Positions 9,676 to 24,641 of a DNA stretch of 64,000 bases are shown in pieces; within the stretch, counting starts at the first letter, position 1, and every line of letters starts with the position of its first letter. The notes beneath the pieces are model-generated. The model made no database searches and was not told the origin of the DNA. It worked only from the letters and a program-made list of their open reading frames with translations. This stretch comes from Microbulbifer sp. SAOS-129_SWC (GTDB lineage: Bacteria > Pseudomonadota > Gammaproteobacteria > Pseudomonadales > Cellvibrionaceae). The position numbers were made by a program, and so were the translations under genes. Where the stretch lies: NCBI RefSeq assembly GCF_039696035.1, contig NZ_CP155567.1, positions 3,653,001 through 3,717,000 on the forward strand, written 5' to 3'.

Positions 9676-10130
9676 AACGTCACGTAAAGACAAAGCGAGC
9701 TGCCAAACTGGCCACAGTTTCGTGCGTCGATTTCCGAGACAACGCAAGCTTTCTGCATTTTTTATCCGCCGGGCACTGAATCGTTGCATTCAAGAAAAAG
9801 ATCGGTATAAATGGTGCAACAACACTAAAGGCAACCCTATACGGGCGTGCCAGATCGAGACAGGGCGCGAATAAAAATACCTATGCGCCGCTGAAAAATC
9901 GTTTTGCCACGGCTGGAGGGGCTCTGCCAGTGGTTAAATATTGACGGCTATTCAGCGACAGCATCACCTGACGCCTGGCGAAAATGTAAACCGACCTCCT
10001 GCTATCGGCCCCTCCGGTTTTCATTGGCATTGCCCGCCTTGCGCTGCGCGCTGCGTCCTGTCTTTCCGCAATTGAGGTTGTTGGCGAGGCACAGGCCCGC
10101 CGCGCAACCACAGGGAAGAGGGATCGAAGC
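9676..10130. promoter_or_regulatory. Leader region of the FHA-kinase cluster with candidate promoter
   Basis: No gene is supported in these 455 bases. TTGCAT at 9784 and TATAAA at 9806 (16-bp spacing) form a reasonable sigma-70 type promoter reading towards the FHA gene, leaving a leader of about 310 bases. GTTGCA (9783) and TGCAAC (9815) form an inverted pair around it that could be an operator. The leader itself shows no known riboswitch. Confidence 0.45.
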
Positions 10131-11117
10131 ATGGCTTCACTGCAGCACCCAGACAGGGAACAGCCCGTCTACCTGATGGCGCACCACACTGTTGGGCGGC
10201 GACAGGACCGGGTCGATACGCGCATCACCAGCTCTGAAATCTCCGGCATTCACGCCGCTATCCAGTGGACCGGAACCCACTGGAATATTCGCGACCTCAG
10301 CCGCAACGGTACCTGGCTCAATAACCAGCAGATGGTGCCGGCCAAGAACTACCAGTTGCAGCAGGGCGACCACATCGCCTTCGGCCGCGCCACCAACCCG
10401 GCCTGGGTAGTGGAAAACCTCGATGCGCCGGAAAACCTGCTGATCGACCTGGAAACCGGTGAGGCGCAACTGCTGGAGCAATACCACCTGCTGCCCGATG
10501 AGCGCGAGCCACTCGCCAGCCTGCACTACAGCCCGCTCACCGGCCAGTGGCTGTACGAGATTACCGGCAATTCCAACGGCACCCACAACGCCACCATCGT
10601 CAAGCACGGCGACCGCGTTGACTGCGGCGTACACAGCTGGCGGCTGTTCCTGGCCGACAACCAGGGGGCCACCCGGGAGCTGTCGCTGAAGCAGCTGTCC
10701 ATTACCCAGTTTGACCTGCGCTTCTCCGTCAGCCACCACGAAGAACACGTGCAGCTGCAATTGCGCCAGGGAGAAATCAAACAGGCGCTGCCGGCGCGCA
10801 TCCACAACTACCTGCTGCTGTACCTGGCCCGCGCGCGGGTAAACGATATGCAGCGCGGCGTCGATGCCGATTCGCAGGGCTGGGTGTCGATCCAACTGGC
10901 CACCCGCGAGCTGGGCATCACCGTCAATCACCTGAATACGCAGATCTTCCGCGCGCGCAAGCAGATCGGGGAATCACTGCCGGACGCCATCGACACCTCC
11001 GATCTGGTGGAGCGGCGCTCATGGGAAATTCGCCTCGGCTGCAATCGTTTCGAAATTTACAAGGGCTCGCAGCTGGAGTCCCACACCGGGATCCGCACGG
11101 CAGCGGTAATCGAATAA
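10131..11117 (+). CDS. FHA domain protein with C-terminal winged-helix-like domain
   Basis: A 328-residue cytoplasmic protein. The N-terminal FHA domain (about 15-90) should bind phosphothreonine: it has G22-R23, S38-G-I-H41 and N59-G60-T61, the usual phosphopeptide-contact residues. The middle (90-210) is beta-rich and unassigned. The C-terminal part (about 215-315: LLLYLARARVND, GWVSIQLATRELGITVNHLNTQIFRARKQI, IRLGCNRFEIYKG) has the layout of a winged helix of the response-regulator type. AAGAGGGA precedes the ATG. The first kinase gene follows within about 100 bp, so it is a likely substrate or reader and perhaps a phospho-controlled transcription factor. Confidence 0.85.
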   Translation: MASLQHPDREQPVYLMAHHTVGRRQDRVDTRITSSEISGIHAAIQWTGTHWNIRDLSRNGTWLNNQQMVPAKNYQLQQGDHIAFGRATNPAWVVENLDAPENLLIDLETGEAQLLEQYHLLPDEREPLASLHYSPLTGQWLYEITGNSNGTHNATIVKHGDRVDCGVHSWRLFLADNQGATRELSLKQLSITQFDLRFSVSHHEEHVQLQLRQGEIKQALPARIHNYLLLYLARARVNDMQRGVDADSQGWVSIQLATRELGITVNHLNTQIFRARKQIGESLPDAIDTSDLVERRSWEIRLGCNRFEIYKGSQLESHTGIRTAAVIE

Positions 11118-11217
11118 CATGTCAGCGCGGCACGCCCGCGCACAGCCCCGGCACAACGACTGCACAATTACTGAAGGATCCTCTCGCTACGGACGGCTGA
11201 GTGAATCAACGGAACTC

Positions 11218-13794
11218 ATGACGTCAGAGCAAAACCCTTTTTACATCGGCCGCTACCAGGTCACCGGGCAACTGGGTTCCGGTGGCATGGGCGTGGTGTA
11301 CCTGGCGCTGGACGAGCGGCTGAACCGCCGCGTGGCGATCAAGCGGCTGCTGAAGCGACCCAACAGCAGCGCCGCGCCCCAGCGTATCCGCCAGGAAGCG
11401 CTGCTGCTGGCACAGCTCAACCACAACAACATCGTGCAGATCTACGATGTGGTCGAAGAGCGCGACGACCTGGCGCTGGTCATGGAGTATGTGGATGGCT
11501 GCACCCTGCACACCTGGCTGCGCGAACGGGATCCCGGCCTGATACAGAAAATCCAGCTGTTGCGGCAGATCTGTCATGGCCTGGCGCGGGCACACAGCAT
11601 CGGCATCATTCACCGCGACCTGAAGCCCGACAACATCCTCATCGACGCCGACAACACCGCCAAGATCACGGATTTCGGCATCGCCAAGAGCTGGCGTGAG
11701 GACAGCGAACTCACCCTGGAGCAGCACATCGCCGGCAGTTGGGGCGCCATGTCCCCGGAACAGGCCCTGGGCAACCCGCTCGACAACCGCTGCGACCTGT
11801 TTGCGCTGGGCGTACTCGCCTACCGGGTACTGTGCGATGAAACCCCGTTCGGCACGCCGGAAAGCCCCTTCGCCGCGGTCGACCGCCTCGTCAACGCCCG
11901 CCACGCGCCGGCCTCAACCCTCTGTCCCGAGCTGCCCCCGGCACTGTGCCAGCTGCTGGACCGGCTGCTGCAGAAAGATCCGGACAAACGCCCGCTCAAC
12001 GCCAGTATCGTCGCCGAGGAGCTGGGCACCATCCTGCAGGCGCTGGCCGCGGAGCAGAGCGGCAGCGCCACCCGCACGGTAACCGTCACCGCAGAGAGCT
12101 ACCAGCGGCGCCAACAGCGCCGCGCGCGCCTGCGCAAGGGACTGCTGGCCGCGGTCGGCACCGCCGCCTGCGCGCTGCTGGCCGCCGCGGCGGTGGCACT
12201 GTGGCCGACCATCGAGCGCGACGACGGCGGCCGCTATATCGCCATCGTCGCCCCGACGCAAAACAGTGCCACCCCGGCGCTGCGGCAGCTGCATATCAAT
12301 GTGCTGAGCGCGATCAAACAGGGACTGTCGGAGCGCCGCGGCCTGCTGCAGATCCCCTATTCCGAGTCCCGCCCGCTGCGCGGCAAGTCGCTGCGCGAAC
12401 AGGCCCGGGCACTCAATGCACAACTGCTGCTGCACCCGTCGATCACCTGCCAGGCGCGTCGCTGCGAGGCATCGCTGGAGCTGATCGACACGCGCAACTT
12501 CGCCGTGATCGCCAGCCGCAGCACCCAGCTGGAAACGGACTACCCGCTGGAGAGCCGCGCGCGCGTGCTGCAGCAGCTCAACTACCTGCTGCCGCAATTC
12601 CCGGCCCGCGACAACAGTGCCGACTACAACATCAGCCGCGACGATTACCAGCGCTACCTGCAGCTCTACGCGCAGCGCAACAACGACGACAAATCGCCCG
12701 GCATCATCGATGCACTGGAAAAGCTGCAGCAGAAAAATCCCGGTTTCGCCCCCTACTACGACCTGTTCGGTGCCGTCATCGTCGGCTACGAGTACGACAC
12801 CCGCGACGCGGATGCCTTCGATCGGCTGGAGCGCTTCCTGCAGCGCGCCCCCGGCGACATCGCCGACAGCCCGGCGGTACTGTCGGCGCGGCTCAAGCTC
12901 GCTACCGCGCGCGGCAACTGGTCGCGCGCGGCCGCACTGCTGACAAAACTTAAAGTCTCCCTGCCCGATCAGGGCAGCTACTACTTCCAGAAAGCCAAAT
13001 ACCACACCGCGCGCGGCGAGTACGACCGCGCCATTACCGCCATCGACCGCGCCCTGAGCTACCGCACCAGCGCCGCCTACCTGCTGGAAAAAGCCCTGGC
13101 GCTGTCGCAGTCCGGACACATGGATAGCGCGCGCGACTTTATCCAGCGCTCCCTCGAGTACTACAAAGACAACCCGCGCGCCATCTCGCTGCTGGCCGCC
13201 AACGAACTCGACGGCGGCCACCCGAAGGAAACCATCCGCCTGCTGAATGCCGAGGATGTCGAGCAGCTGGGCCCGATGGACACCTACAACCTGTGCCTGG
13301 CCTATTTTATCGAGCGGCAGTTCCCGCGCGCCGACCGCTGCTTCGACGGCATCGCCACCGCGGCCCCGGACGACGCCGAGCCGCTGCTCTACCGCGTGGA
13401 GATTGCCCGCGCCCAGCATCTCGACGACCAGGCCCGGCAGCTGGCCGCACAGGCACTGAAACTCGTCGACGGGCGCAACAACTGGGAAAGCCAGCTAATC
13501 CAGGCGCGCGCCTACGCCGAGCTGGGCCAGCCCGACCGCGCGATTGAAAAGCTGATCGCCATCCGCCGCGACGCGCCGGGCAACCTGTACGTCAACTACG
13601 CACGTGCGCAGATCTATTTCATCACCGGCGACCTGAACTCCGCCAAGGCGCATATCCGCAGCACGCTGGAGATGGGCATTTCGCCGATCTGGTACACCAC
13701 CAATACCTTCGCCTCCCTCTGTACCCGCGCGGAGTTCACCGGCCTGCGCGCCGACTACCCCACGCTCTGCCCCAACGCAATTGCGCAGAAATAG
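11218..13794 (+). CDS. Transmembrane Ser/Thr kinase with periplasmic TPR sensor half (kinase 1)
   Basis: An 858-residue PknB-like receptor kinase. The kinase domain (about 12-280) is complete: glycine loop LGSGGMGVVYLA, lysine K42, H132-R-D134-LKPDN and D152-F-G, with MSPEQ in place of APE. One membrane segment lies at about 308-329. The outer part begins with a FlgO/TolB-like stretch (GGRYIAIVAPTQN) holding a C-X4-C pair, then TPR-type helices to the end, with a Cys pair at the C-terminus (LCTRAEF...PTLC). The ATG at 11218 is preferred because it aligns with kinase 2; an in-frame ATG at 11119 would add 33 unlikely residues. No phosphatase gene is nearby. Confidence 0.93.
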   Translation: MTSEQNPFYIGRYQVTGQLGSGGMGVVYLALDERLNRRVAIKRLLKRPNSSAAPQRIRQEALLLAQLNHNNIVQIYDVVEERDDLALVMEYVDGCTLHTWLRERDPGLIQKIQLLRQICHGLARAHSIGIIHRDLKPDNILIDADNTAKITDFGIAKSWREDSELTLEQHIAGSWGAMSPEQALGNPLDNRCDLFALGVLAYRVLCDETPFGTPESPFAAVDRLVNARHAPASTLCPELPPALCQLLDRLLQKDPDKRPLNASIVAEELGTILQALAAEQSGSATRTVTVTAESYQRRQQRRARLRKGLLAAVGTAACALLAAAAVALWPTIERDDGGRYIAIVAPTQNSATPALRQLHINVLSAIKQGLSERRGLLQIPYSESRPLRGKSLREQARALNAQLLLHPSITCQARRCEASLELIDTRNFAVIASRSTQLETDYPLESRARVLQQLNYLLPQFPARDNSADYNISRDDYQRYLQLYAQRNNDDKSPGIIDALEKLQQKNPGFAPYYDLFGAVIVGYEYDTRDADAFDRLERFLQRAPGDIADSPAVLSARLKLATARGNWSRAAALLTKLKVSLPDQGSYYFQKAKYHTARGEYDRAITAIDRALSYRTSAAYLLEKALALSQSGHMDSARDFIQRSLEYYKDNPRAISLLAANELDGGHPKETIRLLNAEDVEQLGPMDTYNLCLAYFIERQFPRADRCFDGIATAAPDDAEPLLYRVEIARAQHLDDQARQLAAQALKLVDGRNNWESQLIQARAYAELGQPDRAIEKLIAIRRDAPGNLYVNYARAQIYFITGDLNSAKAHIRSTLEMGISPIWYTTNTFASLCTRAEFTGLRADYPTLCPNAIAQK

Positions 13795-13796
13795 AC

Positions 13797-13824
13797 GAAC
13801 CCGACCATAAACAGTGTCGGGTTC
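13797..13824. promoter_or_regulatory. Stem-loop between kinase 1 and kinase 2
   Basis: Perfect 9-bp inverted repeat GAACCCGAC-10 nt-GTCGGGTTC starting three bases after the kinase 1 stop. No T run follows, so it is more likely an mRNA stability or partial termination element that separates expression of the two kinases. Confidence 0.55.
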
Positions 13825-13915
13825 ACAGTTGTCACCAGAGAAAAAAGGTAGACTCGCGCGCAAATTGGCACCAACGCCCGTCACACTCTCATTGCTGCGA
13901 CAAGAATAAAAAACC

Positions 13916-16528
13916 ATGGACTTCGCCCAACCGGAACAGATCCTGTCGGATCGCTATCGCATCGAGCGCACCCTCGGCGCCGGCGGCATGGGCGTGGTCT
14001 ACCTGGCCGAAGACCTGAAACTGCAGCGGCGCGTGGCGATCAAAAAGCTGCGTACCGACACCGCCAACGAGTCCGCCAGCGTGCGCATTCAATCGGAAGC
14101 GCGGCTGCTCGCACAACTCAATCACCCCCACGTGGTACAGCTGTACGATGCCATCGACACCCGCGACGGCATCGCCCTGGTGATGGAATATGTCGAGGGC
14201 ACAGCACTGTCGACCCGGCAACAGAGCCAGCCCCTGTCGTTGGCGGCCAAGCTGGATCTGCTGGTGCAGATCTGCCGCGGTATCGATGCCGCGCACCGGC
14301 TCGGTATCGTCCACCGCGATCTCAAACCGGACAATATCCTGGTGGCCGCGGACGGCAGCGCCAAGGTGGCCGACTTCGGGATCGCCAGCTCCATCGAGCC
14401 CGGCGACGAGCGGCTCACCCGCGACGGCAAGGTGGCCGGCTCCTTCGACACCATGGCACCGGAGCAGCTGCGCGGCGAGGCGCCGCAGCCCCACAGCGAC
14501 CTGTTCGCACTGGGCCTGCTGGCCTACCGGCTGCTGTGCGGCCAGCACCCGTTCGGTGACAACCGCAGTCCCTACACCACCGCCGAGCGCATCCTGCGCA
14601 AACCGCACCCGCCGGCGACGCGCTTCAACCCGGAACTGCCGCCGGCACTCAACCGACTGCTCGACCGCCTGCTGGCCAAGGAGCCCGCCGAGCGGCCGCC
14701 CGGCGCGGCAGCCGTGGCGGCCGAACTGGAGCGCATCGGTCGCGACCTGGCCGAAGGTGGCGAGCGCCGCAGCGAGATTCCCCCCGCGCACAACCCCCCT
14801 ACCAGCGAGGAACACTACCGGCGCCGCCGCCTCCCGTTCGGCGCCCTGGCCGCGCTGCTGCTGGTGGTGGCCGCAGCCGCGGTGGGCGTATCGCTGTCGC
14901 TGCGGCACCCCGGGTTTGCGCACTGGGACAGCGGCCGTTATATCGCCGTGCTGATGCCCGCCGAAATACCCAAACAGAACAGCGCGCAGATACAGAGCGC
15001 ACTCGGTGCCATCTGCCGCGCGCTGGCCAACCGCCGCGGCCTCTACCTGGTGCCCTACAGCGAATCCGCAGCGCTGCGCGGCCAGCCCGCCAGCGCCCAG
15101 GCGCAAAAGCTCAATGCGCAGTTGCTGCTCAAACCCCGCTTCGACTGCGGTGCCAGCGATTGCAAACTGACGATGGCACTCATCGATGCCAGCGACCTCC
15201 GCACCATCGGTAAACGCAGCCTGAGCCTCAAGCCCCACGCCATACGCCGCGGCTACGAGCGCACCCAGCAGCAGCTCAACTATCTGCTCGGCGACTACCC
15301 GCCGCGCGGCAGGGACCCGGACCTCAGCATCGGCGAGGCCGAGTACCAGCGCTTCCTGGCGCTGGAAACCCACAGCTTCTACTACCGCAACATCGAGGTC
15401 TTTGCCTCGACCATGCAGGCACTGGAAGCCCTGCAGCCGCAGGCACCGGACTATCCGCCGATTTACCTGCTCTATACCCAGCTGGCGTTCGACGACCGCA
15501 CCATCAACCGCAATATCGACGCGGTGGAGCGGCTGCAGCGCTTCCTGGCCCGGGCCCCCGACGACATCGGCGATACGTTCGCATTACTGATGTCCCACTA
15601 TTATCTCGCCCTACTGCAATACGACTGGAACCGCGCCCGCGAACTGCTCGCGCGGCTCAAGGACGTGGCCCCGGACCCGGCCAGCTACTATTTCACCGAG
15701 GCCAGCTATTACCAGCTGCGCGACGACTACCCCGCGGCCCTGCATAGCATCGACCGCGCGCTGGCGCTGCGCACCAGCGTCACCTACCTGATGCAGAAGG
15801 CCACCATCCTCAGCTACGCCGGCCAGTTGCCGGCGGCACAACCTATCCTGGAACAGGTGCTGGCGCTGGATAAAAAGGATTTCGCCGCAACCTCGCTGCT
15901 TGCCGCCAACGACCTCGATATGGGCGCATTGCAAGCAGCCATCGAGTTGCTCGAACACGCCGATCCGCAGCAGCTGTCCAGTATCGATATCTTCAACCTG
16001 TGCCAGGCCCGTTACCTGCAAGGTGAACTGGCGCAGTCCGACCGCTGCTTCGCCGATCTCTACCGGCGCCTGCCGGACGACCTGGAACCGCTGCTGTACC
16101 GCGCCGAGATCGCCCGCCTGCGCGGCCAGCCACGGCGCGCGCAACAGTTCGCAGAAAAAGTGCGCGACCTGGGCCGCACGCGCAAGGGCTGGGAAAACCG
16201 CCTGATTCTCGCCCGCGCCTACGCGCTGCTCGGGCAGCAGGAAGAGGCGGCCAGCGCGCTGATGGAAATCCGCCGCCAGGCCACCGACGATACCTATGTC
16301 AACAACGCGATGGCCCAGGCCTATATCGCCACCGACGACCACGCCTCCGCCGCGGCCACCATCCGCCGCGCACTGGAACTGGGCCAGTCGCCGGTCTGGT
16401 ACCGCACCCCGCGTTTCGCCAGCCTGTGCCGGCACCGCGCCTTTGCCGGACTGCGCGCCGACTACCCGGCGCTGTGCGCCAAAGCACAAGCAGACGGAGA
16501 AATAGTCGCAGGCGCGGGAACAGGGTAA
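13916..16528 (+). CDS. Transmembrane Ser/Thr kinase with periplasmic TPR sensor half (kinase 2)
   Basis: An 870-residue paralogue of kinase 1. The kinase domain has LGAGGMGVVYLA (20-31), K43, H133-R-D135-LKPDN, D153-F-G and MAPEQ. The membrane segment is at about 305-325 after a basic HYRRRRLPFG stretch. The outer half repeats the layout of kinase 1: SGRYIAVLMP, NRRGLYLVPYSESAALRGQ, a C-X4-C pair (FDCGASDCKL), TPR helices, the FNLC...DRCF pair and a C-terminal pair (LCRHRAF...PALC). The ATG at 13916 follows AAGAATAAAAAACC. The next kinase begins within 100 bp. The strong likeness of kinases 1 and 2 points to tandem duplication. Confidence 0.93.
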   Translation: MDFAQPEQILSDRYRIERTLGAGGMGVVYLAEDLKLQRRVAIKKLRTDTANESASVRIQSEARLLAQLNHPHVVQLYDAIDTRDGIALVMEYVEGTALSTRQQSQPLSLAAKLDLLVQICRGIDAAHRLGIVHRDLKPDNILVAADGSAKVADFGIASSIEPGDERLTRDGKVAGSFDTMAPEQLRGEAPQPHSDLFALGLLAYRLLCGQHPFGDNRSPYTTAERILRKPHPPATRFNPELPPALNRLLDRLLAKEPAERPPGAAAVAAELERIGRDLAEGGERRSEIPPAHNPPTSEEHYRRRRLPFGALAALLLVVAAAAVGVSLSLRHPGFAHWDSGRYIAVLMPAEIPKQNSAQIQSALGAICRALANRRGLYLVPYSESAALRGQPASAQAQKLNAQLLLKPRFDCGASDCKLTMALIDASDLRTIGKRSLSLKPHAIRRGYERTQQQLNYLLGDYPPRGRDPDLSIGEAEYQRFLALETHSFYYRNIEVFASTMQALEALQPQAPDYPPIYLLYTQLAFDDRTINRNIDAVERLQRFLARAPDDIGDTFALLMSHYYLALLQYDWNRARELLARLKDVAPDPASYYFTEASYYQLRDDYPAALHSIDRALALRTSVTYLMQKATILSYAGQLPAAQPILEQVLALDKKDFAATSLLAANDLDMGALQAAIELLEHADPQQLSSIDIFNLCQARYLQGELAQSDRCFADLYRRLPDDLEPLLYRAEIARLRGQPRRAQQFAEKVRDLGRTRKGWENRLILARAYALLGQQEEAASALMEIRRQATDDTYVNNAMAQAYIATDDHASAAATIRRALELGQSPVWYRTPRFASLCRHRAFAGLRADYPALCAKAQADGEIVAGAGTG

Positions 16529-16612
16529 ACTGGTGTGAAAAGCCGCGATGCAGACCCGAAAAGGGCAGATAACAGCGGCAGACGGATACAACACCAACAA
16601 GAACCAGAGACT

Positions 16613-19195
16613 ATGGAAGTCGCGGAACCTGAACTGGGTCTGGATCTGGATCCAGATAAAAAGGGGCGCTACCGCACCGAGCGCGCGCTGGGTGCCGGCG
16701 GCATGGGTATCGTCTACCTGGCCGAGGACACCCGCCTGCAGCGCCAGGTGGCCATCAAACAACTGCGCAAGGACTCCACCAGCGCCTCCGCCAGCGCGCG
16801 CATCCACAGCGAGGCGCAGCTGCTCGCGCGCCTCAACCACTCCAATATCGTGCAGCTCTACGACGTGCTCGAAGAGAACGGCAGCATTGCGCTGGTAATG
16901 GAATACGTCGAGGGCACCACGCTGAAGGAGTGGATGCGCGAGTACAGCGCACCGCTGAAACAGAAGCTCGACCTGCTGCTGCAGATCTGCGCCGGCCTCG
17001 GCGAAGCACACCGGCTCGGCATCCTGCACCGCGACCTGAAGCCCGACAATATCCTCATTACCCGCAACGGCGCCGGCGGCTTCACCGCCAAGATCACCGA
17101 TTTCGGTATCGCCAAATCCCTGCAACATGAAGGTGAACAGATCACCCGCGAAGACCAGGTGGCCGGTACCGTGGAAGCCATGTCGCCGGAACAGCTGCAG
17201 GGCTTCCCGCTCGACCCCAGAAGTGACCTGTTCAGCCTCGGCGCCGTCGCCTACGAACTGCTGTGCGGCGCGCGCCCGTTTGACGGTGGCGAGGGCGGCG
17301 CCATGGCGCTGGCACACAAGATTGTCAGCGAAGCGCATATCCCGCCGCAGCGGACCAACCCCGCCCTGCCGGCATCCCTCGCCGCGCTGCTCGACCGGCT
17401 GCTGGCCAAGGAGCCGGGCAAGCGCCCCGACTCCGTCGAGCAGGTGGGCGAGGCACTGGCGTTCCTGCAACAGGTGGAATCGGATACCGACACACGCGAG
17501 TTCTCCGCCACCGTGACCCAGCTGCTGCGCAAACCGCCGAGCACACGGCGCCGCAACCTGCGCGCCGCCGCAGGCGCACTCGGCGTTGCCGCACTTGGCG
17601 TTGCCGGCTATTTCGCCTGGGACTACGCCACCCGCCTGGATCCGCAATATATCGCCGTACTGCCGGTGGAGATGCACGGCGACGTGCGCGGCGAAGACAA
17701 CGCCAAAACCCTGACCAAAACCATGGTGCGCCAGGCACTGATGAATGCCGCCGCCCAGTTGAAGGCCTCCGCGCTGGTCAGCTTTACCCCGAAAGACGGA
17801 CAGGATTTTGATGCGCAGCTGCAAAAACTGCGTGACAAGGGTGTGACCGATGCGCTGTTTGCGCGGCTGGATTGTGCGCAGGTGCGCTGTGAGATCGAGT
17901 TGCAGCGGCTGAATCCGGTCAATAGCCAGATCCGGCAGCAGGCTGGGTTTGCGTTTTTGGTAGATAAGCGGCAGGAGGCGGAGTATCGGATTGCCAACAG
18001 TGCCACCGGGCTGTTCCCTAGTGACTATGCCAAAGATACTATCAAACAGATAGCGATGTCGGAGCGGGACTACAGTGATTATCTGAACATTATCAGTCGG
18101 ATGGAAAGCAAGGAGAACTCCAAAGCTGACTTACAGCGGCTCGGCAAGCTGCTCGGCAGCTATCCACAAAACCCCAATCTATACAGAACTTATACGCAAG
18201 TCGCGACAAACCTGTTTGTATTGACGGACGACAAAGCGGATCTCCAGTCAGGTCTGGACATGCTGGAGCGGGCCAAGGCCCGGAAGATTTCGCCGATATT
18301 GGTTCTTGAACTTGAACTTTGGTTGCGGACTTACAGCGCAGATAAAAGCCAGTTCGACGCTCTGATAAAGCAATTCGACAAACAGGAAGCGCCCTCTGCG
18401 GCACTACTTGCCAAGTACGCCCGCTACCTGTTTACCCAAGGGGATTATGAATCGGCCCTGCAATATGCCGAGCAAGCTACCGCGCTAAATCCGTCAGCCG
18501 ACAATTTATACCTGATCGCGCTGAACCACGCTCTTAGCGGGAATTACACTCAAGCGCGCAATATCCTGAAGAAAAATATCAGCGCCCACCCGGAACACTG
18601 GTCTTCGTATTCCGCACTTGGGAATATAGAAATGGAAAGCGGAAACTTTACCGCTGCAGAAAAAGCTATCACCTCAATACCCGAAAAGCTCCGTGGCTGG
18701 CGCACCAAATCCAATCTCGGTGCAATCTATTTCTTACAAGGTAAATACTCGCAAGCATTGAAGGTGTACCAGCAGGTCTTAACATCAGTTCCCGATAATG
18801 TGCCTGCAATTGAGCAAATCGCTGAGACTTACTTGCTACTTGGAGAAACACCGGAATCCATATCAAGTTTCAACAGATTGCTTGAACTAACCAGGGGGAA
18901 AAAGGATTTACGATCCAGGCAGTTTCGAAGCGAGGCTTTAGCCAATGTTGGCAGAATTGATGAAGCCATACTGCTAACCAAGGACCTGCTTAGAGAAGCA
19001 CCTGACGACACTTACGTGCAATACGCTGCAGCCCAGGTTTATGCAAATGCAGAGGAGTGGCGATCTGCGAGCTACCATATCGAAAATTTGCTCAGGCAGG
19101 GCATGAGCGCAGAGTGGTTTAACCTGCCGGCATTCCAGCAACTCTGCACCCAGCCCCAGGTTTCCGCGAAGGTAAGAGCCGCTATCTGCGACTGA
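16613..19195 (+). CDS. Transmembrane Ser/Thr kinase with periplasmic TPR sensor half (kinase 3)
   Basis: An 860-residue third paralogue. The kinase domain is complete: LGAGGMGIVYLAED, K49, H139-R-D141-LKPDN, D163-F-G and MSPEQ. The membrane segment lies at about 316-340. The outer half keeps YIAVLPVE and the C-X4-C pair (LDCAQVRCEI), but the TPR part differs from kinases 1 and 2 and lacks the middle Cys pair; a C-terminal pair remains (QLCTQ...AAIC). From about 18,050 the DNA is visibly richer in A and T than the kinase half, as if the sensor part had another origin. A GTG at 16535 with AGGG upstream is an alternative start adding 26 residues. Confidence 0.92.
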   Translation: MEVAEPELGLDLDPDKKGRYRTERALGAGGMGIVYLAEDTRLQRQVAIKQLRKDSTSASASARIHSEAQLLARLNHSNIVQLYDVLEENGSIALVMEYVEGTTLKEWMREYSAPLKQKLDLLLQICAGLGEAHRLGILHRDLKPDNILITRNGAGGFTAKITDFGIAKSLQHEGEQITREDQVAGTVEAMSPEQLQGFPLDPRSDLFSLGAVAYELLCGARPFDGGEGGAMALAHKIVSEAHIPPQRTNPALPASLAALLDRLLAKEPGKRPDSVEQVGEALAFLQQVESDTDTREFSATVTQLLRKPPSTRRRNLRAAAGALGVAALGVAGYFAWDYATRLDPQYIAVLPVEMHGDVRGEDNAKTLTKTMVRQALMNAAAQLKASALVSFTPKDGQDFDAQLQKLRDKGVTDALFARLDCAQVRCEIELQRLNPVNSQIRQQAGFAFLVDKRQEAEYRIANSATGLFPSDYAKDTIKQIAMSERDYSDYLNIISRMESKENSKADLQRLGKLLGSYPQNPNLYRTYTQVATNLFVLTDDKADLQSGLDMLERAKARKISPILVLELELWLRTYSADKSQFDALIKQFDKQEAPSAALLAKYARYLFTQGDYESALQYAEQATALNPSADNLYLIALNHALSGNYTQARNILKKNISAHPEHWSSYSALGNIEMESGNFTAAEKAITSIPEKLRGWRTKSNLGAIYFLQGKYSQALKVYQQVLTSVPDNVPAIEQIAETYLLLGETPESISSFNRLLELTRGKKDLRSRQFRSEALANVGRIDEAILLTKDLLREAPDDTYVQYAAAQVYANAEEWRSASYHIENLLRQGMSAEWFNLPAFQQLCTQPQVSAKVRAAICD

Positions 19196-19693
19196 TCACT
19201 GCGGTTCGTATTGCGCTTGAGGATCACCGGAGACAAAATCCACCCCGTCGGCGGTAGTGCATTGCCACAGGAAAGTATAAGTATCTGCCTCGAAATCCTT
19301 GTTCTTTACCGTGATCTGCAGCAGCGTATAGTTACCATCGTCGCCCTTCTTCGCTTTCGCCTTGAACTCGTGGCGGAAATTTTCGGTAATTCCCTTGATA
19401 CCATCCTGACCATGCCCGGTAGACTTGGCAAACTGCAGATCCGGCACCTCGGACAGGTCCAGGGTTAGGTTGAGCACAAAGGTGCCTTTCTTGCCATTGA
19501 ATTTGAACAGCATATTGCCAAACTGTTCGCCTTCACTGCTGCTGTTAAACAGCGGCCAGTACTGGTCTACGCCATCCACGGGGTTGACCGGCTTCAGCAC
19601 CAGGTCGTAGCTGCGTTCGGTTTCGTCACCCGCCAACTCGGCAGTAAATACCGGCAGCGCTGCACACTTGTCCGCGACAGTTTCTGAACTCAT
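19196..19693 (-). CDS. Small protein, possibly DP-EP family, convergent with kinase 3
   Basis: A 165-residue acidic protein with no signal peptide or membrane segment, rich in beta-strand-like sequence (GTFVLNLTLDL, YTLLQITVKNKDFEADTYTFLWQC). The end, FVSGDPQAQYEP, resembles the short Asp-Pro motif of the DP-EP family of unknown function, but this is a weak match from memory. Its stop codon abuts the kinase 3 stop with no gap, so the two convergent transcripts must overlap. AGGAGTGG lies before the ATG. Whether it belongs to the kinase system is unknown. Confidence 0.75.
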   Translation of the reverse strand: MSSETVADKCAALPVFTAELAGDETERSYDLVLKPVNPVDGVDQYWPLFNSSSEGEQFGNMLFKFNGKKGTFVLNLTLDLSEVPDLQFAKSTGHGQDGIKGITENFRHEFKAKAKKGDDGNYTLLQITVKNKDFEADTYTFLWQCTTADGVDFVSGDPQAQYEPQ

Positions 19694-19879
19694 ATTCCAC
19701 TCCTGCTATTGTTTCTCTTGTTGTTCCCTGCAGACATCTCAGGTCAGTTAGCATTAACTCACTCTTTGCGCGCGATTGCGGCAGCCCCACTGCCGAACCC
19801 CCGGCGCGCTGAATAGCATAATGGAAACCACCAGCGGAACTCCATCACATTTTTGGCGTGAATTACATTGCGCCAGATA

Positions 19880-19912
19880 AAAAAAACCGGCAGTAACGCA
19901 GTTACTGCCGGT
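19880..19912 (-). terminator. Strong hairpin with T run on the minus strand, no known gene upstream
   Basis: Perfect 12-bp inverted repeat ACCGGCAGTAAC-GCA-GTTACTGCCGGT. On the minus strand it is followed by at least six T. It would end a leftward transcript coming from about 19,913-20,330, where I see no protein gene, or it shields the small gene at 19,196-19,693 from read-through. Confidence 0.7.
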
Positions 19913-20217
19913 CCGAATGATGGTCCCAGCCATCGACGGTTACAACAACACTATCAAGAGCGAATTGGAGCATCCGTGCCCCGGCCAAGCCCTTCCCCAA
20001 AACCCCGGCAGACTAGGCTCTGTGTATGCCGAGCCCGGCTTGGCAGTTCAGCTTGCGCTGAATTGGTCTCCGTTCCCCGGTGCGCCGCAAGCGGCGCGCC
20101 GATCCGATCCTTCGGATTCCTTGTCGAGGGGCATCCAGCCTTCCCGTAGCGTGCGCTGTGTCAAAGTCCTTTGACGCGCTCAGCCCCTCAACCTTGTGCG
20201 CTACTCTACGGATGGGA
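19913..20217. other. Unassigned intergenic region with several hairpins
   Basis: About 300 bases without a convincing gene. Short inverted repeats are dense: AATTCAGC/GCTGAACT near 20,046-20,064, GGCGCGCC-type palindromes near 20,090-20,100, ATCCG/CGGAT near 20,105-20,118, and GAGGGGC (20,126) with GCCCCTC (20,183). It may be a repeated intergenic element or a small RNA read leftward into the hairpin at 19,880-19,912. It matches none of tmRNA, RNase P RNA, 6S or SRP RNA by the signature motifs I could check. Confidence 0.35.
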
Positions 20218-22296: not shown

Positions 22297-23607
22297 ATGT
22301 CGAAACTTTGCATGCGCCTGCTGATTCTGCTGCTCTGCTGTTTTTCCGGATTCGCCGCGGCGCAGAGCTACGAAAAGCTCTATAGCGATTACCGGGGCAG
22401 CCTCTACCAGATCCGCCTGATCGAGAAATCCTCCAATTCCAAGGCCGGGCTGGGCTCCGGCTTCCAGATCTCCGCTGATGGTCTGATCGCCACCAATTAC
22501 CACGTAGTGGCCGAGGCGGTGAGCGATCCGGACAAGTACCAGCTGGAGTACCTGTCGGTAGACGGCAAACAGGGGCCGCTGAAACTGCTGGATATCGACG
22601 TCATCAACGACCTGGCGATCCTGCGCCAGGACAAGCCGGGCAGTGATTTCCTGCAGCTGGCCGATACCACGCCGAGCAAGGGCGAGACCATCTTCTCCCT
22701 CGGTAACCCGCTGGATCTCGGCATGACGCTGATTCCCGGCACCTACAACGGTATCGCCGGCGGCAGTTTCTACGACCGCATCCACTTTTCCGGCTCCATC
22801 AACCCGGGCATGAGCGGCGGCCCCGCCATCAATGCCAGAGGCCATGTGGTGGGCATCAATGTGGCCACCGCCGGCAACCAGGTGAGCTTCCTGGTGCCGG
22901 TCGACAAACTGGCGCACCTGTATAAGCACCTGCGCAAGCAGGGCCCGGAAAAGGCCGTGGACCTGCAGGCCATCACCCACCAGCAACTGCTCGCCAACCA
23001 GAGCGAAATCATCGACACGGTACTGGGCGCAGACTGGAAACTGCGCCCGCTGGGTGAGGCCATGGTGGTGGGCGAGATCGTGCCGGCGATCCAGTGCTGG
23101 GGCAACACCCAGGAAGAAGACGACAACCCGGTGACGCGTATCGACAAGGGCTGTACCGGCCAGGATGTGGTGTACCTGAGTGAAGACTTCAACACCGGCC
23201 GGGTGGAATACGAATTCTTCTGGCTGCAGTCCAAAAAGCTGCAGCCGTCGCGCTTCTACGCCGAGTACGAGCAGCAGATGAGCAGCTTTTTCCCCGGTAA
23301 CAACGCCGGCGAGGAGGATGTCACCAACTTCCGCTGCGACCAGGGCTTCACCTCGCAGCCGCGCGAGTCCGGCGGCGAAACCGAAGAGGCGCAGCGCGAG
23401 GCGCCGAAAGGGCCGGTGATCGCGCGCACCAGCTATTGCGTGCGCCGCTACAAGCACTTCCCGGACCTGTACGACATCTTCTTCCTGAGCCTGAGCGTGG
23501 ACCAGAAAGACCGCGCGCTGGTCAGCCACTTCACCCTGTCCGGTTTTACCCGCGAATCCGCCGAAGCGTTTACCAAGAAGTTTACAAGCGAGATCCAATG
23601 GCACTGA
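22297..23607 (+). CDS. Secreted trypsin-like serine protease (S1C-like)
   Basis: A 436-residue protein with a signal peptide (1-22, ending AAAQS). The catalytic triad of a chymotrypsin-type fold is visible: H69 in TNYHVV, D105 in INDLAIL and S173 in GMSGGPAI, preceded by LGSGFQIS. There is no PDZ domain as in DegP; instead residues about 215-436 form a unique region with four or five cysteines (IQCWGN, KGCTG, FRCDQG, SYCVRR) that may be disulfide-linked in the periplasm. The last codons overlap the following FHA gene by 10 bp, so the two products are probably made together. Confidence 0.87.
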   Translation: MSKLCMRLLILLLCCFSGFAAAQSYEKLYSDYRGSLYQIRLIEKSSNSKAGLGSGFQISADGLIATNYHVVAEAVSDPDKYQLEYLSVDGKQGPLKLLDIDVINDLAILRQDKPGSDFLQLADTTPSKGETIFSLGNPLDLGMTLIPGTYNGIAGGSFYDRIHFSGSINPGMSGGPAINARGHVVGINVATAGNQVSFLVPVDKLAHLYKHLRKQGPEKAVDLQAITHQQLLANQSEIIDTVLGADWKLRPLGEAMVVGEIVPAIQCWGNTQEEDDNPVTRIDKGCTGQDVVYLSEDFNTGRVEYEFFWLQSKKLQPSRFYAEYEQQMSSFFPGNNAGEEDVTNFRCDQGFTSQPRESGGETEEAQREAPKGPVIARTSYCVRRYKHFPDLYDIFFLSLSVDQKDRALVSHFTLSGFTRESAEAFTKKFTSEIQWH

Positions 23608-24641
23608 TTATCGAAGAGCTGAACCGCGCCCAGCGGGTTCAGGCCCGCTATCGTATGGACGGTGCGCGCTACACGCTCGGCCGCGGCTACCAGAATGATG
23701 TCATTGTCGAGGATGTGCACGCGGACGCGGAACACGCGGAGATCCACCGCGGCGATGACGGCCACTATTACCTGCGCGACCTGAAAAGCGTCAATGGCAC
23801 CCAGCTGCTGGGTAACTGCCGCGACAAGTCCGTCAAAGGCACAGACGTCGACGAGCGCCTGATCCATTCCGGCGATGAAATACAGCTGGGCAAGACCCAT
23901 TTCCGCCTGACCGACAGCGCAGCGGCCATGACACCCGCGGTGCCGCTGCACTCGGTGGAAAACCTGTTCGAGCGCCTGTCGCACCCGGCGCTGGCCATCG
24001 GCCTGCTGCTGGCGGTGGCCACCTCTTTCCTGTTGATCGGCTACTACGGCTCTGCGCGCGCATTCCAGTGGAATATCGCCCTCAACCTGGTGGCCGGCAC
24101 CGCCGTGGGCCTGCTCGGTTACGCCGCCGCCTGGGCGTTTATCGGCCGCGTGGTGCGCCACGAGACCCAGTTCTTTGCCCACCTGACCATCGCCGCGCTG
24201 GCGGCGCTGGTATATCTCGGCTGGGAGCGCATCAGCGGTCTGCTGGACTTCAACTTCTCCCTCGGCCACACCCTGTCGCTGCTGAACCTGGCGGTGCTGG
24301 CAGTGCTGTTGCCGGCAATGCTGTGGTGCGCCTGTTACCTGGCGACTAATATAGCCCCGCGCTGGCGCTGGGTGGTGGCCCTGTTGGCGCCACTCAGCTT
24401 CCTCGGTGTGGAGCTGGCCGACCAGGTGGGCAATATCCGCGATTTCAACGAGATTCCGGATATCTCCACCGAACTCAAACACGACAACCTGATGCTGCGA
24501 AAACCGGTGCCGATGGCACAGTTCCTCGCCAATTCGCCGGAACTGTTCAACATCCCCATCGAAACCGATAAAAGCGATAAAAAAGACAAGCCCGCCGACA
24601 CGCAGACCGCCGGCGACAACAGTGCAGAGGAATCGTCTTGA
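23598..24641 (+). CDS. FHA domain integral membrane protein
   Basis: A 347-residue protein. The cytoplasmic FHA domain (about 1-105) has G28-R29 and N66-G67-T68, but the conserved serine three before H46 is D43 (HADAEH), which may weaken or change phosphothreonine binding. Five hydrophobic segments follow (about 128-150, 158-182, 190-206, 220-245, 252-272), then an acidic C-terminal tail (KSDKKDKPADTQ). The ATG at 23598 lies inside the protease gene and a TTG start of hisC overlaps its stop by 4 bp. It may carry a kinase signal to the adjacent protease or to the cell-wall genes downstream. Confidence 0.85.
   Translation: MALIIEELNRAQRVQARYRMDGARYTLGRGYQNDVIVEDVHADAEHAEIHRGDDGHYYLRDLKSVNGTQLLGNCRDKSVKGTDVDERLIHSGDEIQLGKTHFRLTDSAAAMTPAVPLHSVENLFERLSHPALAIGLLLAVATSFLLIGYYGSARAFQWNIALNLVAGTAVGLLGYAAAWAFIGRVVRHETQFFAHLTIAALAALVYLGWERISGLLDFNFSLGHTLSLLNLAVLAVLLPAMLWCACYLATNIAPRWRWVVALLAPLSFLGVELADQVGNIRDFNEIPDISTELKHDNLMLRKPVPMAQFLANSPELFNIPIETDKSDKKDKPADTQTAGDNSAEESS

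Follow-up and report, generated by a model that had tools for sequence, protein, structure and literature searches.

A gene for an FHA protein with a predicted winged helix and its neighbouring TPR receptor kinases in Microbulbifer, the last kinase with a hypervariable outer half

We analyzed a stretch of 64,000 nucleotides (positions 3653001–3717000, hereafter the window) of the single-contig, 4.63-Mb genome of Microbulbifer sp. SAOS-129_SWC. It contains a gene for an FHA-domain protein (FHA1), followed by genes for three Ser/Thr kinases with TPR repeats (K1, K2 and K3) and a small convergent gene that abuts the last kinase gene. In window coordinates, the features are as follows.

10131..11117, plus strand: FHA1, 328 amino acids; FHA domain, beta-rich middle and predicted winged helix; proposed reader and transcription factor.
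11119..13794, plus strand: K1, 891 amino acids; kinase residues 46–299, membrane segment 343–361, TPR outer half; conserved sensor.
13916..16528, plus strand: K2, 870 amino acids; extra kinase with a K1-like outer half (44% identity).
16535..19195, plus strand: K3, 886 amino acids; last kinase, kinase residues 46–300, weak membrane segment 344–362, hypervariable TPR half.
18050..19840 (approximate), no strand: low-GC variable block of the K3 TPR half and the convergent gene, with a drop in GC content and identity.
19196..19693, minus strand: convergent gene, 165 amino acids; by profile comparison a remote DP-EP (PF08985) homologue with S-x-D-P near its C-terminus; candidate ligand or partner.

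A sequence-only reading of the window had placed the start of FHA1 at 9784, which precedes the first ATG of the open reading frame (ORF). The start is the ATG at 10131, and the FHA domain itself was confirmed by Pfam (residues 20–85, E 1.8e-16). The domain carries G22, R23, S38, H41 and N59, the complete FHA signature, which we take to be the phosphothreonine-binding residues. It is followed by a beta-rich middle (about residues 103–173) and a predicted OmpR/PhoB-type winged helix (about residues 195–318). When the structure of the C-terminal domain was predicted alone, its best matches were OmpR/PhoB-type DNA-binding domains. The nine best structural rows were all DNA-binding domains of one family, with modest Z scores; a comparison with the full-length model covered mainly residues 1–99. 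A helix with the motif HLN-x-x-I-F-R-A-R-K, which by topology occupies the recognition-helix position, is among the most conserved stretches of FHA1. This C-terminal domain type occurs once in the genome. The winged helix proposed in the sequence-only reading is supported by the predicted structure but not by sequence methods, and we infer that FHA1 binds DNA.

All three kinases matched Pfam Pkinase (E 9e-54 for K1, 4.1e-51 for K2 and 3.5e-53 for K3) and contained TPR repeats. The catalytic motifs VAIK, HRDLKPDN, DFG and A/SPEQ were intact in each of them, as in Hanks-type kinases. The earlier claims of three complete tandem kinases and of TPR in their outer halves were confirmed. The K1 coordinates are those of the longest ORF; its true start is uncertain and is possibly Met34 (11218). 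One membrane segment had been assigned to each kinase. The best 19-residue hydropathy agreed with this for K1 (2.26) and K2 (2.55) and was marginal for K3 (1.55). A FlgO/TolB-like start of the outer halves was not recovered, as the approximately 165 residues after each membrane segment matched no such Pfam family at E values up to 10, in a scan whose HMMER filters drop most matches with E >0.1. The outer halves, described earlier as three different ones, were nearer to two types: those of K1 and K2 shared 44% identity, whereas that of K3 was 23–25% identical to either. The activation-loop Thr (Thr199 in K1) was conserved in 73 of 78 aligned kinases. The curated PknB/PASTA (Stk1) model scored 253, 261 and 277 bits over the kinase part, below its cut-off of 450. 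The whole genome has seven kinase matches. In a tree of 96 kinase domains, the K1 clade (21 rows) stood apart from the K3 clade (26 rows), and the K2 of the window fell in neither with support. The three tandem kinases of Pseudoteredinibacter formed their own supported clade (12 rows), indicating that the tandem expansion was independent there.

The neighbourhood of FHA1 and the kinases is conserved. FHA1 was present in 37/37 same-genus genomes and in 4 of 21 other genomes of the sample, two of them by the FHA part only; named homologues with >60% identity were from Microbulbifer. A kinase lay downstream of FHA1 in 36/37 same-genus genomes, so the order is not unique to this genome. In the exception (L066), the contig stops 628 nucleotides behind FHA1, and that stretch shows no kinase. 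Among the 36 same-genus relatives, 26 had two kinases, 7 had one, 2 had three and 1 had none. Three kinases occurred in 3/37 genomes, window included, and are a lineage-specific count. The proposal that three sensors feed one reader holds in that gene order places several kinases beside one FHA reader of DNA-binding type; what it lacked is that the number is lineage-specific, that the outer half of K1 is conserved and that the outer half of K3 is hypervariable.

A scan with named organisms returned 70 loci. Of these, 26 belonged to a Microbulbifer group (L070–L094 and L107, counting one gammaproteobacterial metagenome-assembled genome (MAG) without a genus name), and 44 were others (43 from other genera and a second copy in Microbulbifer variabilis). 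The kinase domain began <700 nucleotides from the FHA stop in 24/26 loci of the group; one exception, L075, has a kinase remnant first, and the other was short of sequence. In the 44 further loci, the kinase was the next same-strand gene in 29 and convergent in 2, and sequence was lacking in 3. The kinase profile was built from K1, K2 and K3 of the window, so remote kinases may escape it. FHA1 domain matches were patchy, with 6/369 genomes in a class sample and 25/293 in an order sample, each count including the own genome and a weak match. Among 30 strong loci of these searches, which partly overlap the earlier genomes (3 weak or partial loci were dropped), a kinase match lay within 1.5 kb in 22, one of them a remnant. 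Other Proteobacteria, SAR324 and myxobacteria also have pairs of FHA-winged-helix protein and kinase, with a patchy distribution. Nine partner kinases were scanned: six were kinase plus TPR, of which L125 and L132 had no membrane segment at the threshold used, and three were kinase plus AAA_16 ATPase, one also with a cyclase domain above the cut-off.

Variants of the pair were also seen. A YcaO gene was present in seven loci with a partner of the kinase-AAA_16 type, so this reader type appears to serve clusters like those for ribosomally synthesized and post-translationally modified peptides (RiPPs). In L100, L116, L118, L124, L126, L137, L139 and L067, the FHA-winged-helix protein, a soluble kinase/AAA-type gene and YcaO lie in one stretch, which suggests that azole-type RiPP clusters use a kinase-read regulator. 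In Microbulbifer thermotolerans (L036/L075), a kinase remnant of 135 open codons separates FHA1 from the only intact kinase, which points to the loss of a kinase. In Microbulbifer variabilis SaN7-12 (L130/L069), there is a second FHA-winged-helix protein, which is diverged; about 1.6 kb from its gene, and separated from it by an unknown gene, a kinase-TPR gene lies on the other strand.

Closely related loci were compared in all 30 pairs with FHA1 at least 90% identical, drawn from the 35 kinase-bearing same-genus relatives; the window is outside this set, and the pairs are non-independent because genomes recur. In the closest pairs, the loci were near-identical except for the TPR half of the last kinase. 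Median identities outside the kinases were 94% for FHA1, 94% for marR (14 pairs), 92% for the PLP gene (21 pairs) and, with 26 pairs each, 93% for the trypsin-like gene, 88% for a second FHA protein gene (FHA2) and 90% for hisC. The first kinase (15 pairs) gave medians of 93% for the kinase domain, 87% for the membrane-proximal part (one pair <60%) and 87% for the TPR part (none <60%). The last kinase gave 92% for the kinase domain, 65% for the membrane-proximal part (11 pairs <60%) and 49% for the TPR part (25 pairs <60%). The pair L050/L051 shares one TPR allele of the last kinase (99%), and in L056/L062 the outer half of the first kinase differs too (60%). In nucleotide profiles of six chosen pairs, identity fell from mostly 84–100% to mostly 30–66% inside the last kinase and returned to 84–100% beyond it, with sharp edges. 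The divergent block covered the convergent gene in four of the six pairs and not in the other two. The strong difference was restricted to the TPR half in L038/L042 and L050/L052; in L039/L044 the recovered identity spans only about 200 nucleotides, after which gene content differs.

The GC content of the last-kinase TPR half was lower than that of its kinase part in 35/35 loci (medians 44.5% vs 62.4%) and lower than that of the first-kinase TPR half in 29/29 loci (44.6% vs 63.3%). For K3 of the window, the values were 50.0% for the TPR half and 65.3% for the kinase part. Along the window, the GC fraction was 0.62–0.68 at 17000–17999, 0.46–0.54 at 17750–19999 and 0.64 by 20500, and identity to four relatives dropped from about 18050. 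Against the nearest relative (L031), the convergent gene held 75–87% identity. A similar contrast was seen in Cellvibrio, where L102 compared with L101, L103 and L104 showed 95–96% identity in the kinase and 30–31% in the outer half, and in Pseudoteredinibacter L095/L097, where the third kinase showed 84% (kinase) and 36% (outer half) and the first 99% and 93%. These patterns suggest segment exchange by recombination, cassette-like between close relatives and often including the small convergent gene, and a swapped sensing end of K3 suggests that it recognises something fast-changing. The second kinase of L034/L035 shows the reverse of K3, with 50–80% identity in the kinase part and 78–100% in most of the outer half; exchange between paralogues may explain it.

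The stop codon of K3 touches the stop of the convergent gene. The gene family was found at this place in 35/37 same-genus loci, and the other two are contig ends. Tail-to-tail stops abut exactly in 21/35 of these loci and are at most 16 nucleotides apart in 33/35; the S-x-D-P motif was present in 35/35 proteins. Clustering at 45% identity split the family, in 32 genomes, into four types; an ORF rule dropped four of 36 loci from this count, in three of which a profile search afterwards recovered the gene. Tail-to-tail equivalents lie by the last kinase in Pseudoteredinibacter, Gilvimarinus and four Cellvibrio loci, and one per genus passed the Pfam DP-EP cut-off (E 4.2e-12, 3.9e-6 and 5.9e-21, respectively). 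Of nine homologues found for the Pseudoteredinibacter protein, two carry the name DP-EP family protein. Aligned by hhalign, the Microbulbifer and DP-EP profiles gave a probability of 96.3 and P 1.6e-9 over 141 columns, vs P 0.27 for the control, and at this profile level the 165-residue protein is a remote DP-EP homologue. A Pfam DP-EP member from another genome matched PDB entry 3njh, 'Peptidase', at E 1.2e-4; the mixed partner alignment reached only 3njh at E 0.27. PDB searches by sequence gave nothing for the Pseudoteredinibacter DP-EP protein and nothing relevant for the Cellvibrio protein or alignment A5. Arenicella, Shewanella salipaludis and Aestuariibacter have similar-sized convergent ORFs, with a weak DP-EP match in Aestuariibacter only.

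PF08985 was found in 1/369 genomes of the class sample and 2/390 of the order sample, counts limited by the fact that the model misses the Microbulbifer partners. In one of the three genomes it adjoins a kinase/FHA module, and in the other two (L186, 8920–9336, and L188) it adjoins winged-helix-nSTAND1-TPR proteins. These proteins combine a Trans_reg_C winged helix, an nSTAND1 NTPase and TPR, so that another kind of TPR regulator has this small neighbour as well. In Cellvibrio L101, L103, L104 and L113, the outer half of the kinase is shorter and a same-strand ORF of 109–158 codons replaces the DP-EP gene; these ORFs were not matched by the partner profile, and the three of four scanned with Pfam showed no clear family.

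The closest known logic is that of PknH-EmbR of Mycobacterium tuberculosis, in which a Ser/Thr kinase is paired with a transcription factor of FHA type. The general idea behind the candidate undescribed signalling system of the sequence-only reading is known from there. Like EmbR, FHA1 has an FHA domain with phosphothreonine-binding residues and a predicted OmpR-type winged helix. EmbR has its winged helix at the N-terminus, followed by BTAD and FHA, whereas FHA1 has the FHA domain at the N-terminus, a beta-rich middle and the winged helix at the C-terminus, and its Pfam matches include no BTAD. FHA1 would work like EmbR but, its order being reversed, is not classed as EmbR. The locus differs further in the TPR outer halves of its kinases and in having several kinases per reader, one of them hypervariable. 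A Shewanella DP-EP protein reportedly cleaves itself and self-assembles (Osipiuk et al. 2012); the convergent partner is a remote homologue of this family (DP-EP/DUF1888, PF08985; PDB 3njh and 3nji) with a conserved S-x-D-P.

Further likenesses come from papers cited here by PMC number, with statements limited to the available part of each text. The mycobacterial regulator EspM has, like FHA1, a predicted N-terminal FHA domain and a C-terminal helix-turn-helix; it is likened to FHA1 by description and not by homology (PMC7002343). Its N-terminal half alone did not shift target DNA, and the part tested for DNA binding was the C-terminal half (PMC7002343). Unlike FHA1, it is tied to ESX-1 secretion, and that part of the text describes no adjacent kinase (PMC7002343). 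PpkA2-VtsR of Vibrio alginolyticus also links a kinase to a transcription regulator (PMC10482370). The Shewanella DP-EP protein has been employed as a self-cleaving endopeptidase (PMC11655445), and the literature searched linked DP-EP to no receptor kinase. TPR is among the commonest domains tethered to bacterial kinases (PMC2877116). For bacterial TPR Ser/Thr kinases, no description was found of a sensor half that is hypervariable between near-identical kinases, or of its pairing with a DP-EP gene. The open-licence literature searched, outside which most subscription papers lie, contained no description of this gene combination, which is weak evidence of novelty.

FHA domains bind phosphothreonine, Hanks kinases autophosphorylate their activation loop and OmpR-type domains bind DNA. 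From these properties, the likely chain runs from sensor to kinase, phosphothreonine, FHA1 and promoter. A stimulus on the TPR half would lead the kinase to autophosphorylate its conserved activation-loop Thr (Thr199 in K1), FHA1 would dock on the kinase phosphothreonine and then be phosphorylated or released, and this would alter its promoter binding. K1 (and K2) would read a common cue and K3 a fast-changing, lineage-specific one. The most economical cue for K3 would be the tail-to-tail DP-EP-like protein or its self-processed form, making this neighbour the first candidate ligand. The variability of the TPR half, its low GC content and the steady neighbour would fit a recognition function under diversifying exchange. 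We infer the phosphorylation of FHA1 by the kinases and the identity of the ligand. We give about even chances to a module in which the kinases signal to a transcription factor, one input being constant and the other polymorphic, and in which the DP-EP-like protein is a candidate ligand.

Several observations weigh against this proposal. For the C-terminal part of FHA1, Foldseek alone gave E values no better than 0.086, Pfam found no family in the window protein and a few chance-level matches in other members, and a PDB profile search found nothing. Aligned by hhalign with nine OmpR-type domains of the own genome, it took the expected register, but P was 0.087 and 3 of 30 column shuffles outscored the real alignment. 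No operator common to the whole genus was seen by eye in the 260 nucleotides upstream of FHA1 in 27 loci. No kinase lay next to the FHA gene in 10 of the 44 further loci. The last kinases across loci had a median membrane-segment hydropathy of 1.49 vs 2.2 in the others, and no signal peptide was seen by eye in the DP-EP-like protein, though the TPR half of K3 is predicted to be periplasmic. Pfam PF08985 did not match the window protein or three other Microbulbifer partners. In Mantel tests, the partner co-varied weakly with the last-kinase TPR part (r 0.22; 4/500 permutations as high) and nearly equally with the membrane-proximal part (r 0.19; 13/500), compared with r 0.01 (171/500) for the kinase domain. 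Strict co-variation of receptor and partner was not found, and L051/L052 is a counter-example, with 89% identity in the partner and 35% in the TPR part. Gilvimarinus showed a weaker identity contrast and no GC contrast. No low-GC sensor half was found in the loci of Gilvimarinus, Aestuariibacter or Shewanella salipaludis, nor a GC dip in L127 and L132, so the trait is not universal.

The weak co-variation of partner and TPR part would also fit a system in which the kinase-to-FHA1 pathway is kept, the TPR half of K3 responds to a signal from outside (for instance the product of a rival, a nutrient peptide or a piece of envelope) and the DP-EP-like gene just hitch-hikes. The pairs L038/L042 and L050/L052, which differ strongly in the TPR half only, and the different same-strand ORF in the partner's place in Cellvibrio L101, L103, L104 and L113 agree with this; however, a tail-to-tail gene in 35/37 same-genus loci and three further genera is steadier than hitch-hiking requires, and we consider this explanation possible but rather unlikely. 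Another explanation makes the locus immunity-like, with the TPR half detecting parts of phages or intruders and FHA1 controlling the DP-EP-like protein as effector. The recognition module is low in GC and variable, DP-EP genes adjoin STAND-TPR proteins in two other genomes, the DP-EP-like protein is related to a self-cleaving endopeptidase and has a trypsin-like gene close by, and conflict systems with variable parts are known, although the cores described in the available text are different (PMC7159879). The PADLOC models PD-T4-6 and mad6 matched the kinases (for example K3, E 1.5e-82); these matches cover the kinase part, where ordinary Hanks kinases may match as well, and the NCBIfam MAD6 cut-off was not reached (about 163–172 bits of 460). 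Among the proteins of this locus scanned with PADLOC, no model matched FHA1, FHA2 or the DP-EP-like protein at E 0.001, and the only other match was a weak one to RT-Protease_XI (E 4e-14) in the trypsin-like protein. We consider an immunity-like system improbable.

It is also conceivable that FHA1 does not bind DNA, its OmpR-like fold serving protein contacts while the kinases act elsewhere. The similarity of its sequence to DNA-binding families is not significant and its structural Z is modest; against this, the nine top-ranking structural matches all belong to a single family of DNA-binding domains, and the motif at the recognition-helix position is among the most conserved stretches, which makes a non-DNA-binding FHA1 very improbable. 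The type VI secretion set PpkA-Fha-PppA likewise runs from a kinase to an FHA protein, and the FHA domain of FHA1 weakly matches TagH (32 bits vs a cut-off of 120). The window differs from that set in having no PP2C or VipA match, and an origin from it was rejected on gene content: the three PP2C matches and one VipA match of the genome are all outside the window, as the sequence-only reading had concluded. VipA lies at 342850 of the contig, far from the window, and a further FHA, PP2C and kinase are found there at about 327–360 kb. That the locus is the usual PpkA-Fha set is extremely improbable.

The sequence-only reading had overlooked the convergent gene, the variable TPR half of K3 and FHA2, which lies behind the trypsin-like gene.

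22297..23607, plus strand: trypsin-like protein (Pfam Trypsin_2, E 3.7e-26); conserved neighbour.
23580..24641, plus strand: FHA2, second FHA protein (Pfam FHA, E 4.1e-11), with hydrophobic stretches by eye.

Both genes were present in the fetched stretch of 29/36 same-genus relatives and also adjoin the FHA1 homologue in the Alteromonadaceae MAG L099. FHA2 is a possible further reader; the trypsin-like gene is a candidate member of the kinase/FHA1 system. The ect (ectoine) genes lie upstream of the locus in 27/36 relatives, so we treated them as mere neighbours and dropped an ectoine linkage. Positions 9676–10130 are a 455-nucleotide gap between a MarR-type gene and FHA1. It contains the near-palindrome CGCCTGGCG, retained by part of the closer relatives of the window. 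The upstream 260 nucleotides of FHA1 in the 27 loci have blocks shared clade by clade, and CGCCTGGCG, in the window and some relatives, is one of them.

Ser/Thr kinases of this sort are far less known in Gram-negative than in Gram-positive bacteria (PMC6213207). A fixed module with one reader and a naturally varying sensor half is a ready allele set for finding the targets of TPR receptor kinases, and DP-EP proteins, apparently little studied, gain a testable partner. If the cue of K3 were the DP-EP-like protein of its own neighbour gene, the locus would tell own-type from other-type. It is doubtful, and we hold it unlikely, that this is a self/non-self or strain-type locus in which the TPR ectodomain and a cognate DP-EP-type ligand are swapped as one allelic cassette, with match or mismatch reported to the nucleoid through the FHA-winged-helix factor and the second, invariant kinase as reference input. 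Should the cassette hold both receptor and ligand, the locus would represent a new type of recognition locus in bacteria.

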